DNA of 55,041 nt from Gammaproteobacteria bacterium. GTDB lineage: Bacteria; Pseudomonadota; Gammaproteobacteria; JACCYU01. The notes under the pieces are model-generated. The model was not told where the DNA came from, made no database searches, and worked only from the letters and a program-made list of their open reading frames with translations. The DNA lies in assembly GCA_013695765.1 (NCBI GenBank), contig JACCZW010000006.1, forward strand, positions 1-55,041, read 5' to 3'. Positions 829 through 54,980 of this stretch are shown piece by piece. A program made the translations under genes and the position numbers. How positions within the stretch are numbered: position 1 is the first letter of the stretch; each line of letters starts with the position of its first letter.

Positions 829-2601
829 CTAAGCAAAGAAACCATGCAGAAACCACGTGCGTGTCTTGCGCAGTTCGCGATAAATCCACAACCGACTGCC
901 ATCCGTGTCGATGGCGATGTAATAGTCGCGGCGCACATCGTGGCCGTCCCACCAACCGTTCTCGATACGTTCCGGACCGCGCTGTATCGACACGGGTCCG
1001 CGTCGCCATGGATGGCCTTGCCGTGTGTTCAATTGTTGCGGGGCGGGCAACAGCCATAGCGGGCGCGGCCTGTTAGCAGTGGCCTCGCTGCGCTGGCCGT
1101 CGGGCTCGATACAACGCCACGCCCGCTCCGGCCGATGATCCGCACAGACCTCCAGACCTCGAACGGCCTCCCGGCCCAGGCGGGCTTGTAGCTGTTCCAG
1201 CAACTGCCGCCAGTCGAGGTTTGATTCGTTGTTAAATCCCCCCCAACCCCCCTTTGAAAAAGGGGGGAGCAAGGCGGGATTTTTTGAAAAGGGGAGGTTG
1301 GGAGGATTCTTTGAAGAAGGAGGGACCAGGAGAGTATCGGATGACCCTTGCTTGGGACACGTTGCAAAACCTGGCTCCCGTTGCCTTCCCCCCTTTGCAA
1401 AGGCCTGTCCTGAGCCTGTCGAATGGAGGGGATAGGAGGAATTTTGTAACCCGCATTTCGCAAATAAAGATTTATTACGCGCGATGAATGGCTGTAGCGA
1501 TGCGGCCGCCAGCCGGAGCTTGAGCACGGGCGCCGGCAGTCTGAAACGGTGCAGATGTTCTTCCGTTAGTTTCAGCAGATGCGCCGCATCGCGCGTGGCG
1601 TGACGGGTGCCGATGCGCAGCCGGCTTGGCGGAGATTTCGCATGATGCAGGTCGAGTTGCAGCCGGTTGACGCCGGCATCGTGCGCGCGCAGAAATTCGA
1701 TGAGTCTTGCGAGCAATTGGCGCGCCGCCTCCAGCAGAGCGTCGGCATCATCGGTTTCCCATGGCAACTCCAGCCCGGTTGTGAAGCGAGGCGGGGAATG
1801 GAAGCCGCGCTGTGGATCGGGCCGCAACCCCAGCGCGCGATCCATGAAATCGAGCAACGTGGGCCCGAGGCGACGCGCCACGCTTTTTCTGGGCAGCCGC
1901 CACAAATCATGGAAGTTGCGCACGCCGGTATGGCGCAGATAACGGATTGCATCCGGTTGCAGTGGCAGCGCGTTGATCGGCAAGCGCCGTAGTTCAGCAT
2001 GCAAGCCCGCCTGGTCGAGAACCTCGGCAGTCTGGCCGACGCTTGCCAGCAACAGGCTGGCCAGCGGCGTGGGCGTTACGGCGACATGCACGTGCGCGCC
2101 CAGCGCCGCCAGACCCTCGTGCAGTCTTGCCTTCAGGTTTTCCAGATTCCCGAAGAGCCGCAGACTGCCGCTGATCTCCAGCAGTAAAGCCCGCGGCGGT
2201 TGCAGGCTGACCGTAGGAGTGAACTGGTTCGCCCATGCCGCCAGCATTTCCAGCCTGCGCGCCTCCGCGGTCGTGTCCCTGGTTTGCGTTTTCAAATGTG
2301 GACATAGCGCATACGCCTGCGCGAGCCCCATGCCCGTCACGACGCCGGCCGCACGTGCCGCCGCGCAGGCGATGTGAACATGACGGCGCGCGCCATGGTC
2401 CTCGACGATCGCGAAAGGTGTCGCCTCGCGGTGCCCGGCTGCTTCCAGGGGCAAGGCCGGAAACCAGGCGCAAAGCCACAGTTGCCGGGCATGAACTGCA
2501 CGCTCGGGGTGCTGCGGGCACGCAGGCTGTGTGTCCGGTGATAACAGCGACGGCAGCGATGCCTGCCGCGCGCGCCGATTCGTTAAGGGAAATGCGGCCA
2601 T
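829..2601 (-). CDS. imuB: ImuB, Y-family polymerase-like mutasome subunit with in-frame repeat insertion
   Basis: 590 aa. The recognisable protein begins near residue 41 (LWLCAWFPALPLEA). The region equivalent to the Y-family active site reads LLLEISGSLRLFG, lacking the catalytic acidic pair, as expected for ImuB, a non-catalytic partner that links DnaE2 to the beta clamp. The C-terminal family block (WRQLLEQLQARLGREAVRGL, then DHRPERAWR) is intact. Between them, residues about 382-459 are low-complexity K/P/G/S-rich sequence encoded by interspersed repeats (1225-1458), foreign to the family, yet the frame stays open. A LexA box lies 16 bp upstream of the ATG, so expression is probably SOS-induced. 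About 160 bp separate it from imuA. Confidence 0.93.
   Translation of the reverse strand: MAAFPLTNRRARQASLPSLLSPDTQPACPQHPERAVHARQLWLCAWFPALPLEAAGHREATPFAIVEDHGARRHVHIACAAARAAGVVTGMGLAQAYALCPHLKTQTRDTTAEARRLEMLAAWANQFTPTVSLQPPRALLLEISGSLRLFGNLENLKARLHEGLAALGAHVHVAVTPTPLASLLLASVGQTAEVLDQAGLHAELRRLPINALPLQPDAIRYLRHTGVRNFHDLWRLPRKSVARRLGPTLLDFMDRALGLRPDPQRGFHSPPRFTTGLELPWETDDADALLEAARQLLARLIEFLRAHDAGVNRLQLDLHHAKSPPSRLRIGTRHATRDAAHLLKLTEEHLHRFRLPAPVLKLRLAAASLQPFIARNKSLFAKCGLQNSSYPLHSTGSGQAFAKGGRQREPGFATCPKQGSSDTLLVPPSSKNPPNLPFSKNPALLPPFSKGGWGGFNNESNLDWRQLLEQLQARLGREAVRGLEVCADHRPERAWRCIEPDGQRSEATANRPRPLWLLPAPQQLNTRQGHPWRRGPVSIQRGPERIENGWWDGHDVRRDYYIAIDTDGSRLWIYRELRKTRTWFLHGFFA
1225..1458. repeat. 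Composite interspersed repeat inserted in frame in imuB
   Basis: Contains CCCCCTTTGAAAAAGGGGGG (near 1252-1267) and related C-rich/G-rich halves, plus CCTGTCCTGAGCCTGTCGAA at 1404-1423, a repeat type that I recall from many environmental bacterial genomes, normally between genes. About 234 bp, a multiple of three, with no stop codon in the imuB frame. Boundaries are estimated from where ImuB-like protein sequence stops and resumes. Confidence 0.8.
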
Positions 2602-2762: not shown

Positions 2763-3400
2763 TTAAAGTTTCAACCGCACACTCTGGCGGTTCGACCCGC
2801 CGCGCGCCTTCAGGATTTGCACTTCAATTCCGTCGTCCAGCGCGTGCAGTCGCAGGCGCAAAGCCGCCGATGACGGTTGGACGGCGTACGCCAAGCCACG
2901 GAACACCAACCCCGGCAGTCGCCCTGCTCGGCCGCCAGTTGCAGACGGCGCAGCGCGCGAAAGTCGGCCGTATTCGGCCAGAGCAAAACGGCGTTGCAGA
3001 GCCCGGAACGCAGCAGTTGCTCGGCCGCCCATAACGCATCGGCCGCCTGCGGCTTGTGTATGAGCATCGTCGCGGCGAGATCGATGCCCACAGCGGCCAG
3101 CGCGGGCGCGTACGGCAGATAAGGTGGCGCGATCCACGCCTGCCAGCGGCCGTCGCCGTGCACCCGCGCGAGCGCCGGCATCAGAAGCCGTAACGCGCCG
3201 CTTGCCTGCGGTTCGCAAAGGATCTCGGTCAGCGCACCAGCCGGCCAGCCGCCCCCCGGCAACGCCGCGTCCAGCGCGGCGAAACCGGTCTCGATGCCAG
3301 CCTTTGAATTATCGCCATCGCGTCCCCGCCAAAGCGCGGGAATGTTTTGTGGAAGCTTGTCCAGTCTGGCGCTCACGGCGGAGAACCGCATTGCCACCAT
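2763..3400 (-). pseudogene. imuA: imuA (SulA/RecA-like mutasome gene), frameshifted
   Basis: The first about 160 codons give ImuA-like protein (VSARLDKLPQ, IETGFAALDAALPGGGWPAG, RRLQLAAEQGDCRG). The frame then goes off into unrelated sequence ending at 2810, whereas the next frame continues the family C-terminus (LVFRGLAYAVQPSSAALRLR to SNRQSVRLKL) to a stop at 2763. One missing base at the C4 tract 2910-2913 (G4 on the coding strand) restores a single reading frame of about 213 aa. ImuA is the accessory partner in the ImuA-ImuB-DnaE2 mutasome. The lesion may be a sequencing error in a homopolymer or real inactivation. No LexA box is visible upstream of this gene. Confidence 0.85.
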
Positions 3401-4791: not shown

Positions 4792-5397
4792 TTAAAGACT
4801 CCGATTTCGAATCACGCCCACGCCCAGCCCCTCGATGTTGAGTGCGGTGTGGCGTAGATCGATTTCAATTGGGGAAAACTCGGGATTCGCCGCCTCAAGC
4901 ACAGCCTTGCGGCCGGCGAGTCGCAGGCGCTTGACCGTCACCTCGTCGTCCAGGCGCGCGACCACGATCTGGCCCGATCTCGCCTCGGCCGTTTTGTGCA
5001 CCGCCAGCAGGTCGCCATCCAGAATGCCGGCGTCGCGCATGCTCGTGCCCTTGACACGCAGCAGGTAATCGGCTTTGGGTTTAAACAGCGCGCGATCCAG
5101 CCGGCAATAAGACTCGATGTGCTGCTCGGCCAGGATCGGACTGCCCGCGGCGACCCGGCCGATAATCGGCAACCCATGATCTTTGTTTTCAATGAGGCGG
5201 ATGCCGCGCGAGGCCGACGGGATCAGTTCGATGGCGCCCTTGCGCGCCAGCGCCTTCAAATGGTCGCGAATGCCGTTGGTCGAGCTTACCCTCATGCCGG
5301 CCGCGATCTCGGACACGGTCGGCGGCATGCCGCGGGTCGCAATTTCATCGCGTATGAATTCCAGAACTTCGGTCTGTCGTGCGGTAAGTGAGTTCAT
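4792..5397 (-). CDS. lexA: LexA SOS repressor / autoprotease
   Basis: 201 aa, the usual length. Residues 1-65 form the winged helix DNA-binding domain ([25 protein letters not shown]). The cleavage site is Ala84-Gly85 (GRVAAGSP), and the Ser119/Lys156 catalytic dyad is present ([16 protein letters not shown]), matching E. coli numbering. The ATG at 5397 was chosen because the longer open frame would run across the LexA box at 5412-5431. LexA represses SOS genes until RecA filaments trigger self-cleavage. The box directly before the gene indicates autoregulation; the imuB-dnaE2 box 2.2 kb away is another likely target. Confidence 0.97.
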
Positions 5398-5411
5398 GCC
5401 GCTTATGCGAA

Positions 5412-5431
5412 TACTGATCTTATAAGCAGTA
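5412..5431 (-). promoter_or_regulatory. LexA box upstream of lexA (autoregulation)
   Basis: TACTGATCTTATAAGCAGTA, a perfect CTG-N10-CAG core with symmetrical TA flanks, 14 bp before the lexA start codon. It has the same outer bases as the imuB box. Confidence 0.92.
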
Positions 5432-5573
5432 TAAACCCTCGCTGTCGCCGCTGACAATCCCGCGCAACTTATCTCGGTAAAGAAAAACCTAGTGCCGCGT
5501 ACCTGAACTTTTTGACGGGCGCAGTTTACCGGATCAAACTCTGGGCGAAGACCGTTATGGAGGGCGCCGGTGT

Positions 5574-51893: not shown

Positions 51894-51975
51894 AAAAAAC
51901 CCTGGCGGGGAGGGGCTTTAGGATTTGATGCTGGGGTTGATTGCATTCACACCAACCTACGCGTGCTTGCTACGC
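51894..51975. repeat. Two-hairpin repeat, copy 1
   Basis: Hairpin-1 region CCCTGGCGGGGAGGGGCTTT, with a degraded left arm, followed by CTGGGGTTGATTGCATTCAC and ACCAACCTACGCG, matching copies at 52307, 53196, 53836 and 54910. Stem 2 has one mismatch here. Lies between two convergent small genes. Confidence 0.75.
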
Positions 51976-51978
51976 TCG

Positions 51979-52197
51979 CTACAACAGTTTTACGATAGCG
52001 CCAAAAATTGCGGTCATGGCGATCATCGTGCCCGCGTTCCATTTGATGATGCGAGTCTCCATCTGATGTAGATCGCTTTTGCTCGCGAGGTGGCTGAGAT
52101 CGCTACCGCTTACGGATTGCGCCGCCTTGAGGGCTACATCATCCGGTACCCCGGCTTGTTTGAGCGCATCGTATAGTTCGGTGACAGCGGTAGTCAC
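51979..52197 (-). CDS. Small helical protein with C-terminal membrane segment (DUF1640-like)
   Basis: 72 aa from GTG 52197 (GGAGG 5 bases before). ELYDALKQAGVPDDVALKAA, then LASKSDLHQMETRIIKWNAG and a terminal hydrophobic helix MIAMTAIFGAIVKLL. The SKSDL-x-ME-x-R-x-IKW stretch is the clearest DUF1640-like signature of the three relatives here. Role unknown; the tail suggests membrane attachment with a helical cytoplasmic part. Confidence 0.75.
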   Translation of the reverse strand: MTTAVTELYDALKQAGVPDDVALKAAQSVSGSDLSHLASKSDLHQMETRIIKWNAGTMIAMTAIFGAIVKLL

Positions 52198-52306
52198 TGG
52201 AGCCTCCGGATCATGTGGGTCTGACTGAATCGTACCACGGCGACCGGCTAATCAGCGCTTGCACAAGGGCATGAAACGGTGCGCGGTACGCGACTCGCAT
52301 TGCTAG

Positions 52307-52397
52307 AAAGAGAAAGCACCTCGAGAGATGGGGCTTTGGGTGGTGCGTAGTTGGGTTGTTGGGGTTCATCGTGTGCACCCCAATCTACGCTCGCTGC
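52307..52397. repeat. Two-hairpin repeat, copy 2
   Basis: AGAAAGCACCTCGAGAGATG then GGGCTTTGGGTGGTGCGTAG, a degraded hairpin 1, followed by stem 2 TTGGGGT (52359-52365) / ACCCCAA (52377-52383) and CTACGCTCGCTGCAAC. Lies between the divergent small genes at 52197 and 52496. Confidence 0.75.
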
Positions 52398-52495
52398 AAC
52401 TCAATCGCGGTACGGGTGTCGCCGACGCGGACGGTAGCCTGAGCGGCGCGAGTAGCCGGTCTTGATTACATCCGCGTGCCTGTTAACATCCGGTG

Positions 52496-52714
52496 ATGGC
52501 TGACGTAGAAAACATCGTTCTCGATCACCTGCGCCACATTCGTGGTGCCGTTGACGGCTTGCGCGAGGACATGCGGGAAGTTAAAACCCGCCTGGGCCAT
52601 GTGGAAGAACAAATTGGTGGCCTTTATGGCCAATATGCCTCTCTTTCACGCCGTATCGACCGCCTGGATGAACGGTTTGAGAGAGTCGAGCGCCGGCTTG
52701 AGCTGGTGGAGTAA
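52496..52714 (+). CDS. Small coiled-coil protein, family B
   Basis: 72 aa from ATG 52496. ADVENIVLDHLRHIRGAVDG, LREDMREVKTRLGHVEEQ and RIDRLDERFERVERRLELVE give an uninterrupted amphipathic coiled coil with no membrane segment. Nearly the same protein is encoded at 54645-54842, with an 8-residue difference in the middle (IGGLYGQ region). Such proteins recur as hypothetical genes in many bacteria; function unknown. Confidence 0.7.
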   Translation: MADVENIVLDHLRHIRGAVDGLREDMREVKTRLGHVEEQIGGLYGQYASLSRRIDRLDERFERVERRLELVE

Positions 52715-52770
52715 GCGACGCGCGCAACGCTTTGCATCTCTTTGCGCGATAAATTTCGCGGCGATGATCG

Positions 52771-52880
52771 ATGCCGGGATGCGCCGGCATGTTGTAGGCT
52801 GGGTTAGCGTAGCGTAACGCGGCATTGGTGAAGCGTCGTTATGCCGGGATTCGCAAACTCATCCCAGCCTACGCTTGCTG
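52771..52880. repeat. Interspersed repeat with GGCTGGGTTAGCG module
   Basis: 52797-52832 matches 53902-53937 with one mismatch over 36 bp (GGCTGGGTTAGCGTAGCGTA then ACGCGGCATTGGTGAA). It is followed by GGGAT (52846-52850) / ATCCC (52861-52865) and AGCCTACGCTTGCTG, the tail of the two-hairpin repeat. Directly abuts the 3' end of the next minus-strand gene. Confidence 0.8.
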
Positions 52881-52881
52881 C

Positions 52882-53085
52882 TTACGACAGGAACAGTTGC
52901 AAAAGAATGGTTACCAAGAGCGCGGTATTGACAGACAGCATCCAACTGTGCAGACGCTGCGTGGATTCGATGTGTGCAAAACGGTTCTCGTAACCGGCGA
53001 TCGCTTCAGCGGCGGCCGCGGCCTGCTGGTCGGGCACATTCGCCGCCCGAAATGCGTCGTAAACCTCCTTGATCATCGTCAGCAT
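52882..53085 (-). CDS. Small helical protein with C-terminal membrane segment (DUF1640-like)
   Basis: 67 aa from ATG 53085 (GAGGGA 5 bases before). EVYDAFRAANVPDQQAAAAA, AGYENRFAHIESTQRLHSWM, and membrane tail LSVNTALLVTILLQLFLS. Third member of the tail-anchored family in this island; they share a helix-V/IxD-x2-A start and a conserved Trp before the hydrophobic tail, but little identity, so the copies are old or independently acquired. Confidence 0.68.
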   Translation of the reverse strand: MLTMIKEVYDAFRAANVPDQQAAAAAEAIAGYENRFAHIESTQRLHSWMLSVNTALLVTILLQLFLS

Positions 53086-53195
53086 GTGATTCCCTCGTCA
53101 TCGGCACAGATAATTCGGGACATTATAGCCGATAGGCTTCTAAAGACCGTACAGGGTTGCGCGAATCACTAAACCCGACCGCAACAGCCCAAAAG

Positions 53196-53264
53196 GAAAG
53201 CCCCTGGCGGGGAGGGGCTTTCGGGTTGAGTTGGGGTTTTTTGCATTCACCCCAACCTGCGAGT
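53196..53264. repeat. Two-hairpin repeat, copy 3 (best preserved)
   Basis: Hairpin 1: GAAAGCCCCT (53196-53205), loop GGCGGGG, AGGGGCTTTC (53213-53222), a perfect 10-bp stem. Hairpin 2: TTGGGGT (53231-53237) / ACCCCAA (53249-53255) with an 11-base loop. Lies upstream of the 52882-53085 gene and at the 3' end of relE, where it could terminate transcription. Confidence 0.85.
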
Positions 53265-53265
53265 G

Positions 53266-53529
53266 TTATCTACGTTTCCGGTAAACCTCGCGTCGATGAC
53301 CTATGCGCACCACAAGAATCAGCAACGCCCGTTCGGTGATTTCGTAGATGACCCTGTAGTCTCCGACGCGGATTCTACGCAAGCCGGTCATCTCGCCCTT
53401 CATCAGTTCCCCTCTGTGAGGTGCATTCCTCAGCGCGTCGATCGCTTCAATCAGCCTCAGTCGGTTCGGTCTGTCGAGTTTGGAAAGCGCTTTCGCGGCG
53501 CTTTGTTTAATCTTGAGCGAGTAGCGCAC
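53266..53529 (-). CDS. RelE/ParE-family toxin
   Basis: 87 aa from GTG 53529. RelE-like: AAKALSKLDRPNRLRLIEAI, DALRNAPHRGELMKGE, and the core LRRIRVGDYRVIYEITE ending in RREVYRKR. Conserved basic residues of ribosome-dependent mRNA interferases are retained. Its start overlaps the 3' end of the antitoxin gene by 23 bp, the usual toxin-antitoxin coupling. It looks intact. Confidence 0.9.
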   Translation of the reverse strand: MRYSLKIKQSAAKALSKLDRPNRLRLIEAIDALRNAPHRGELMKGEMTGLRRIRVGDYRVIYEITERALLILVVRIGHRREVYRKRR

Positions 53530-53728
53530 GCTTCACGTCATCCCAATCCAGCACTGGATCGGTGGGGTCCTGAAGGCGCGCGACCGCGAGCGACAAATCT
53601 TCGTAGTCCTCCAGATAGCGCTCCACAGCCAGCCGCACTACGCCGGCGCGCGAGCGCTTGAGCGCACTGGCCGCGTTATCGAGTGTTTCCAGTAGTTCGT
53701 CGGAAAGGCGCGTTGTTATCTGAACCAT
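53507..53728 (-). CDS. Ribbon-helix-helix antitoxin (RelB-like)
   Basis: 73 aa from ATG 53728 (GAGG upstream; ATG 53749 is less likely). MVQITTRLSDELLETLDNAA followed by RSRAGVVRLAVERYLEDYED is a ribbon-helix-helix DNA-binding domain; the C-terminal part (DPVLDWDDVKRAL) would wrap the toxin. It is expected to neutralise the RelE-like toxin and repress the pair. Confidence 0.88.
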   Translation of the reverse strand: MVQITTRLSDELLETLDNAASALKRSRAGVVRLAVERYLEDYEDLSLAVARLQDPTDPVLDWDDVKRALLAQD

Positions 53729-53835
53729 GGGGATTGCCTCGAAAGTCAATCAATGTCATCGACAGTCATTATAGGAACTCGATTACCGCGCGTCCACACG
53801 GGCAGCGCCCGGATCGCAACTCGCTTTGGTCGAGA

Positions 53836-53937
53836 GAAAGCCCCTCGCGGGGAGGGATTCTGTGGTGCGTTGTTGATGGCGGGGTTCGCCGGCATTTTGC
53901 AGGCTGGGTTAGCGCAGCGTAACGCGGCATTGGTGAA
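53836..53937. repeat. Two-hairpin repeat copy 4 joined to GGCTGGGTTAGCG module
   Basis: GAAAGCCCCTCGCGGGGAGG with a mutated right arm (GATTC for GGGCTTTC), GTGGTGCGTTGTTGATGGCG, then 53902-53937, a 36-bp match with one mismatch to 52797-52832. Its right end cuts into the yoeB remnant. Confidence 0.85.
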
Positions 53938-53952
53938 ACGTGAGTATTCCGG

Positions 53953-54021
53953 ATGGATATTTTTGTCGGTCCGCTGCCAATAGAGATAGTCTTGCCATCC
54001 TCTGGTCGAGGACTTAATCAT
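53953..54021 (-). pseudogene. yoeB: yoeB toxin remnant, truncated by repeat insertion
   Basis: Begins ATG 54021, overlapping the yefM stop by 8 bp as in intact pairs. The first 23 residues (MIKSSTRGWQDYLYWQRTDK then NIH) match the YoeB N-terminus, after which the frame reads into the interspersed repeat (53902-53937) and never resumes toxin sequence. About 60 C-terminal residues, including the catalytic part, are missing, so the toxin should be inactive. Confidence 0.85.
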
Positions 54022-54271
54022 CCTCAAGCAGCGTTCTTTCCGTGGGCTTGCCGGCTTCGACCTCCTCGATGGAGTCCGCCAGGGCGCGCGCGTTCGCCGG
54101 GCTGCGAAGCAGGTACGCGGTTTCTTCCCAGGCGTTGTAATCGTCCAGTGAAACCATGACCACGGACGCGCCGTTTCTGCGCGTGACGATAACCGGTGCA
54201 TGATCCCGGTTAACCTTGTCCATGGTTCTGGCCAGATGCGCGCGCGCTTGTGTATAAGAAATGGCGTCCAT
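54014..54271 (-). CDS. yefM: YefM/Phd-family antitoxin (orphan)
   Basis: 85 aa from ATG 54271. MDAISYTQARAHLARTMDKV, APVIVTRRNGASVVMVSLDD, YNAWEETAYLLRSPANARAL and a short acidic tail fit YefM. It would have bound YoeB and repressed the operon; with YoeB destroyed it may persist as an orphan regulator or neutralise related toxins elsewhere. An upstream AT-rich stretch with GTACATGTAC-like symmetry (ATTGTACATGTACAAT, 54311-54326) may be its operator. Confidence 0.92.
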   Translation of the reverse strand: MDAISYTQARAHLARTMDKVNRDHAPVIVTRRNGASVVMVSLDDYNAWEETAYLLRSPANARALADSIEEVEAGKPTERTLLEDD

Positions 54272-54310
54272 AATATTTCCATAAATCGATGGGCAGTATT
54301 GTACGGTTAA

Positions 54311-54326
54311 TTGTACATGTACAATT
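54311..54326. promoter_or_regulatory. Palindrome upstream of yefM, probable operator
   Basis: ATTGTACATGTACAAT is a perfect 16-bp palindrome about 40 bp upstream of the yefM start. E. coli YefM-YoeB is known to bind palindromes with a TGTACA core, and TGTACA is present twice here overlapping the centre (TGTACATGTACA). Good candidate for the autoregulatory site. Confidence 0.7.
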
Positions 54327-54359
54327 AACTTAATTAAACCGTGGAACGCGCCAACTCGG

Positions 54360-54600
54360 TAGGGTGCGCCGTGCGCACCGTGCGACACGTACGGGGGCGC
54401 CGGACGATTGGTCCGCGTGCGCAACAGCGCACCCTGCGCTTGCTGTAGGGTGGATTAAGGCGCATCGCGCCGACAAAATCGTCTGGAACGATTTTGAACA
54501 GCTTCAGCTGGCCCGCCAGGGCGCGCGCCACGGACGGTGCGCGTAATCCACCGCGGTCGGTGGATACGCCCGCAAAAGCGGCGGCCTTTATCCACCCTAC
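54360..54600. repeat. Nested inverted repeats of the TAGGGTGGATTA class
   Basis: AGGGTGCGC (54361-54369) / GCGCACCCT (54427-54435), then GTAGGGTGGATTAAGGCGC near 54446 facing GCGGCCTTTATCCACCCTAC (54581-54600). A non-coding composite of common interspersed repeats filling the 54272-54644 gap with the yefM operator; ATTTTGAACAG-type filler lies between. No gene supported. Confidence 0.75.
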
Positions 54601-54644
54601 ATAGCTACTTGCTCATCCCAGCCTACGCTTGCTACGATAAAACC

Positions 54645-54842
54645 ATGGTCGACATAGAAAACATTATTCTGGAGCATCTGCGGCATCTTCACACCGCGGT
54701 GGATGGTGTGCGCGAGGACATGAGGGAAGTCAAAAACCGTCTTGGCCATCTGAAAGAGCAGTACGCCTCGCTTTCCCGGCGCATGGATCGTCTCGACGAA
54801 CGTTTCGAGCGTGTAGAGCGGCGGCTGGAACTGGTTGAATAG
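54645..54842 (+). CDS. Small coiled-coil protein, family B
   Basis: 65 aa from ATG 54645. VDIENIILEHLRHLHTAVDG, VREDMREVKNRLGHLKEQ and RMDRLDERFERVERRLELVE, nearly the same as the protein at 52496-52714, lacking the short IGGLYGQ segment. Preceded directly by CCCAGCCTACGCTTGCTACG, the right end of the two-hairpin repeat. Function unknown. Confidence 0.72.
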   Translation: MVDIENIILEHLRHLHTAVDGVREDMREVKNRLGHLKEQYASLSRRMDRLDERFERVERRLELVE

Positions 54843-54909
54843 ACTCATTGCTCCGGTCGAACCACGCGCGTGCTGCTTCGCAACGATCAAGATTAATGAG
54901 GTAGTAAAA

Positions 54910-54980
54910 GAAAGCCCCTCGCAGGGAGGGGCTTCGGGTGGTGCGTGGTTGATGTCGGGATTCTCAGGCTCATCCCAGCC
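54910..54980. repeat. Two-hairpin repeat, copy 5
   Basis: GAAAGCCCCT (54910-54919) / AGGGGCTTC (54927-54935), then GGGTGGTGCGTGGTTGATG, stem 2 GGGAT (54957-54961) / ATCCC (54972-54976), AGCC. Just after the family B gene, where hairpin 1 could act as its terminator. Confidence 0.82.

Follow-up and report, generated by a model that had tools for sequence, protein, structure and literature searches.

The imuB gene of this gammaproteobacterium raises the question of how interspersed repeats that normally lie between genes came to be translated inside a protein, and whether the gene is still maintained with its insert. The gene lies at positions 829-2601 (- strand) of the window, the 55,041-nucleotide stretch analyzed here, and forms a single open frame encoding 590 aa. 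By alignment and Pfam, the product consists of a catalytically dead, Y-family-like core, a long linker, and a C-terminal region, with the polymerase-like domain matching the IMS domain (PF00817, E 3e-9). ImuB is 87% identical to the ImuB of a congener (G001) and 59% identical to that of a member of another genus in the same family (G002); the genome of the window itself is referred to as G000.

The surroundings are those of an ImuB operon, with lexA (4792-5457), imuA (2763-3400), imuB, and dnaE2 all on the - strand. Only the N-terminal part of dnaE2 (1-798, 266 aa) is present, as the contig end cuts the gene. Upstream of imuB, a LexA-box-like sequence of the form CTG-N10-CAG (2619-2634), putatively bound by LexA, overlaps a promoter-like match (2661-2633). 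The C-terminal part of imuA lies in another frame than the rest: the Pfam matches to RecA and SulA fall on an open reading frame at 2810-3400, while homology to the ImuA of G001 leaves this frame after AEQGDCRG and resumes in the neighboring one. This split appears to stem from a one-base indel, either real or introduced by assembly; imuA of G001 reads through.

In an alignment of the window ImuB with 16 other gammaproteobacterial ImuBs (14 repeat-free ones and those of G001 and G002), family conservation ends after KSLF (residues 377-380; 1462-1473, - strand) and restarts at W464. The residues in between, 381-463, form an expanded linker of 83 aa (1213-1461, - strand). Linkers of the 14 repeat-free ImuBs measure 6-17 aa, with a median of 9, which puts the excess in the window at about 74 codons. 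The first-pass annotation, made from the window alone, had located a run of captured repeats at 1225-1458, where the ImuB family sequence breaks off and later resumes, and these limits prove right to within a few codons. It had also named two kinds of repeat, palindromic units and TTCGACAGGCTCAGGACAGG, both of which are present, and had set the insert after the polymerase-like core and ahead of the C-terminal partner-binding region, in agreement with the alignment.

The insert is built from palindromes of the form CCCCCTTT..AAAGGGGG..GGGGGATTT with a nested TTCGACAGGCTCAGGACAGG element. One complete 49-nt nested palindromic unit, AAATCCC..CCCCCCTTT..AAAGGGGGG..GGGATTT, occupies 1234-1282 (model R1, E 5.1e-13) and is translated as NPALLPPFSKGGWGGFN. 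Adjacent to it are the degenerate half-units TTTGAAAAGGGGAGGTTGGGAGGATT and CTTTGAAGAAGGAGGGA (approximately 1283-1326), which fall below the model threshold, were read from the sequence, and are translated as VPPSSKNPPNLPFSK. A short inverted repeat, GGGAGCCAGG / CCTGGTCCC, marks off the following stretch of about 60 nt (approximately 1327-1386), of which a DNA search returned no second copy in G000, G001, or G002. A degenerate palindromic unit at 1385-1444 (model R1, E 0.015), translated as SSYPLHSTGSGQAFAKGGR, is split by the second repeat, which is nested within it at 1404-1423 (- strand). The same combination of TTCGACAGGCTCAGGACAGG and palindrome recurs at G001:C275 (L054) and, in G134, within a gene for an RND pump (L227). 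The insert was also considered as a regulatory RNA element; this was rejected on its MFE z-score of -0.74, an Rfam search of the insert that gave no credible match, and a search for terminator-like sites within it that gave none.

The position of the insert can be related to mycobacterial ImuB, in which a clamp-binding motif (352-356) is followed almost directly by a RecA-NT motif (360-387), the binding site for ImuA' and indispensable for mutagenesis (PMC11791113). The domain order is the same in the window ImuB, as judged from the alignment and a structural model: Y-family core, clamp motif, RecA-NT motif, and C-terminal region. From its position at the end of the core and its shape, KSLF would be a degenerate clamp-binding motif; relatives carry NEILF, NETLF, or NEDLF at the same place. 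Residues 464-485 (WRQLLEQLQARLGREAVRGLEV; 1147-1212, - strand) form a RecA-NT-like helix and strand by alignment, predicted structure, and position, and are expected to be the ImuA-binding motif. Judged by position, the insert would thus separate the clamp-binding motif from the RecA-NT motif, with 83 aa of repeat origin in place of the few residues found in mycobacterial ImuB (PMC11791113). An AlphaFold model built on the 16-member ImuB alignment is confident up to residue 373, drops to a pLDDT below 50 for residues 374-462, and beyond the linker recovers a helix (464-475) and a strand (482-485). The linker, rich in Pro, Gly, Ser, and Lys, is therefore predicted to be disordered, as the first-pass annotation had proposed. 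Its further suggestion, that such a linker would be new, does not hold for the kind of event, as in-frame repeats in DnaE2 and recBCD are described in the main text of PMC3733652.

Close relatives with a linker of ordinary sequence at this place, which would contradict a capture of repeats, were not found. The imuB linkers of G001 (33 aa, NPPQSPFIKGGSKGGF) and G002 (40 aa, NPPLISPFRKGF) consist of the same kind of repeat, at the same site and in the same frame as in the window, while the arrangement of the repeats differs in each of the three genomes. Since these relatives share a linker of repeat origin, what looked like a one-off capture is better read as an insertion that appears old and family-wide and was probably enlarged later in the lineage of the window. 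This family comparison covers two relatives, both carrying the insert, and an empty site was seen in neither. A search of GTDB contigs added only an ImuB match at 42% and the match to recC of Acinetobacter tjernbergiae described below. The complete 49-nt unit of the window matches the unit in imuB of G001 at 44 of 49 positions when inverted and at 30 of 49 when compared directly, the latter being the background expected from the self-palindromy of the window unit. It follows that either the unit was turned around or another one was inserted independently in the opposite direction, and that the frame stayed open. Inverting the G001 unit in silico likewise leaves its imuB frame open.

These differing orientations and arrangements would also fit repeats that arrived independently in each lineage, with the linker acting as an insertion hotspot and without a single ancestral event. 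We regard this as rather unlikely. An inversion in place accounts for the orientation in one step, and old copies at shared sites are common in these genomes: nasA carries an in-frame repeat in both G000 and G001, and the intergenic copy G001:C218 is occupied in G000 as well (G000:C135), with no empty site at that position.

The first-pass annotation had pointed to the length of the insert, a multiple of three without a stop, as a sign that selection may have kept the gene open. This gave too much weight to the missing stops. Two of the 6 frames of 1225-1458 contain no stop and 3 contain one, and in random DNA with this G+C content, a run of 78 codons would be free of stops in approximately 9% of cases. 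Since the repeat is stop-poor, openness is weak evidence, and we rejected it as the sole sign of selection. A constant reading phase of the hairpins was rejected as a sign of selection on the protein too: two phases are about equally frequent, and few copies use the third, a scarcity plausibly due to the stop in CTT TGA. The idea of selection itself is better supported by divergence. Against G002, dN/dS of imuB is 0.27 before the insert and 0.24 after it; against G001, the values are 0.30 and 0.50, the latter based on only 13 changes. Linkers of 83, 33, and 40 aa, each of them in frame, and purifying selection on the sequence to either side of the insert together show that the gene has been kept. 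Synonymous divergence between imuB of G000 and G001 amounts to 0.22 in the part preceding the insert and drops to 0.057 in the part following it (Fisher P approximately 0.001), perhaps marking a recombination break at the repeat.

Part of this evidence could be read as decay of imuB, in which the mutasome has become dispensable and the insert grew in a frame that stayed open merely from its scarcity of stops. In comparison with the congener, nasA has a dN/dS of 0.13, lower than the imuB values, which fits weaker constraint on imuB. With imuA looking frameshifted and dnaE2 truncated at the contig edge, the window genome may hold a mutasome in decay. However, the 590-aa frame is intact, the 127 C-terminal residues are near-identical to those of the congener with a low dN/dS against G002, and the LexA-box-like site is kept. 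The uninterrupted imuA of G001 and the open imuB of all 3 genomes argue in the same direction, and we consider decay improbable.

Genome-wide, copies of the repeat were counted by pattern and covariance-model searches. The strict pattern CCCCTTT-N0-9-AAAGGGG, with matches counted by strand, occurs 10 times in G000, 6 times in G001, and 18 times in G002, while its reversed form, used as a control, gave no match in any of them, which puts the repeat above chance. With the covariance model, G000 and G001 have about 10 places each and G002 about 40, most of them outside genes. As the first-pass annotation had supposed, then, repeats that are normally intergenic were captured in frame by imuB, and the genome of the window holds further copies, including the one in nasA. 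Across the class, the strict pattern is patchily distributed: of 369 gammaproteobacterial genomes, 25 contain it, the richest (G178) with 137 matches; the reversed control had none in all 369. The family therefore resembles REPs in consisting of short palindromes with many dispersed, mainly intergenic copies, and it is at the same time a protein-coding palindromic repeat, with in-frame copies that have conserved protein on both sides. In G284 (L185-L192), the repeats lie in regular inverted pairs about 28 nt apart, as in REPINs, and matches to Y1 transposases are weak. Several direct-repeat families, including GCCCCTCGCGGGGAGGGGCTT and CTCATCCCAGCCTACGCTTGCT, cluster at the end of the window (51895-54951).

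When 134 merged sites were read in their context, 10 sites in 8 long open reading frames were convincingly intragenic. In-frame copies were found in 13 host genes: imuB, nasA, dnaE2, mnmG, recC, priA, hsdM, hsdS, three DNA methylase genes, and genes for an NAD-dependent epimerase and an RND pump. The copies in mnmG and dnaE2 are those of G002. Homology flanks the repeat on both sides in HsdM, PriA, the epimerase, and the RND pump. The repeat falls inside a Pfam domain match in HsdM, the epimerase, the RND pump, and MnmG, and between domains in PriA, NasA, and RecC; for HsdS and the three DNA methylases, the case rests on long open reading frames on either side. Nine of the 13 hosts act on DNA, in a sample that is small and partly biased. 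dnaE2 of G002 (G002:C141, L048 1-978) contains two palindrome units in frame and part of a CTGGCGGGCCGTTCGCCGGGGCCGATGTTCAACAGACATCGGCC-type repeat, which is also present in G001 (G001:C209, L063 1500-1610). In recC of A. tjernbergiae (L146 1840-5520, - strand), the in-frame copy of the palindrome family reads KSPPAPLFQRGESEEIPLFNKEG.

That palindromic repeats are tolerated within genes, those for DNA repair included, is already known. In its main text, the study of Di Nocera et al. (2013; PMC3733652) describes GTAG/CGTC REPs that are mostly intergenic and occasionally lie in frame within genes, among them many replication and repair genes such as DnaE2, recBCD, and uvrABC; some intragenic clusters encode 43-82 aa, and the authors argue that such REPs may occupy flexible linkers. 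The imuB repeat shares with these its short palindromic form, its chiefly intergenic location, and its occasional in-frame occurrence. However, its consensus (A2) has neither a GTAG nor a CGTC tag and ends in GGGGGATTT, and ImuB is not named in the main text of PMC3733652. Beyond what that text describes, the present case adds a site and frame common to three species and an inverted unit. A literature search with the literal repeat sequences gave no relevant match.

In Rickettsia, palindromic elements (RPEs) are translated in frame inside otherwise conserved proteins. The imuB repeat is alike in this respect, by description rather than by sequence, but it belongs to other bacteria and presumably has another sequence, and its copies are mostly intergenic, whereas RPEs often lie in genes. 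The inverted pairs of G284 recall REPINs and REPs mobilized by RAYTs. A link to RAYTs is nevertheless not supported, and no correlation was seen: searches of G178, with its 137 matches, and of G134 and G002 gave no Y1 transposase (PF01797), despite the many copies there.

We consider it highly probable that a REP-like repeat inserted in an ancestor into a linker able to tolerate it, was later expanded, and is translated as a passive tether. A palindromic repeat, probably moving as a unit, would have entered the short imuB linker in an ancestor of the bacterial family. Its survival there would reflect a linker that tolerates added residues and a palindrome so poor in stops that several frames and either orientation can be read through. 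Later, in the window lineage, the repeat would have grown through further degenerate units and the nested second repeat, with the 49-nt unit inverted relative to the congener. The product would be an 83-aa flexible tether leading from the clamp-binding end of the core to the RecA-NT motif, where ImuA is expected to bind. The protein is presumably made with the linker included and mutasome function probably persists; most likely, the longer tether is passive, and ImuB would still dock on the clamp and hold ImuA and DnaE2.

The tether could instead be adaptive, with the altered distance between the clamp and ImuA motifs tuning translesion synthesis and mutation rate, and repeats persisting in repair genes for that reason. 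The two motifs exactly bracket the insert, most of the in-frame hosts act on DNA, and the main text of PMC3733652 reports a similar tendency for other REP families and suggests hypermutability. Yet linker length and sequence vary freely among the three genomes, inverted unit included, as in a neutral spacer; nasA, mnmG, and the epimerase and RND-pump genes are hosts as well; and the sample of hosts is small and biased, making this reading very unlikely. We give little more credence to its extension beyond ImuB, in which one gammaproteobacterial palindrome family would be a recurrent source of disordered linkers kept preferentially in DNA-transaction proteins (ImuB, DnaE2, RecC, PriA, restriction-modification) and, in ImuB, would change the spacing of the clamp- and ImuA-binding motifs and thereby tune mutagenesis.

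What is new is ImuB as the target protein, with an exact functional location, and a repeat family independent of the tagged REPs. Documented cases of interspersed non-coding palindromes turned into protein are few, and this locus adds one more repeat family and target. The tendency toward genes for DNA repair and modification, reported for other REP families, is seen again with an unrelated repeat and is now open to systematic counting. In ImuB, the hub of the mutasome, the insert falls at a site of defined function, between the putative clamp-binding motif and the expected ImuA-binding motif.
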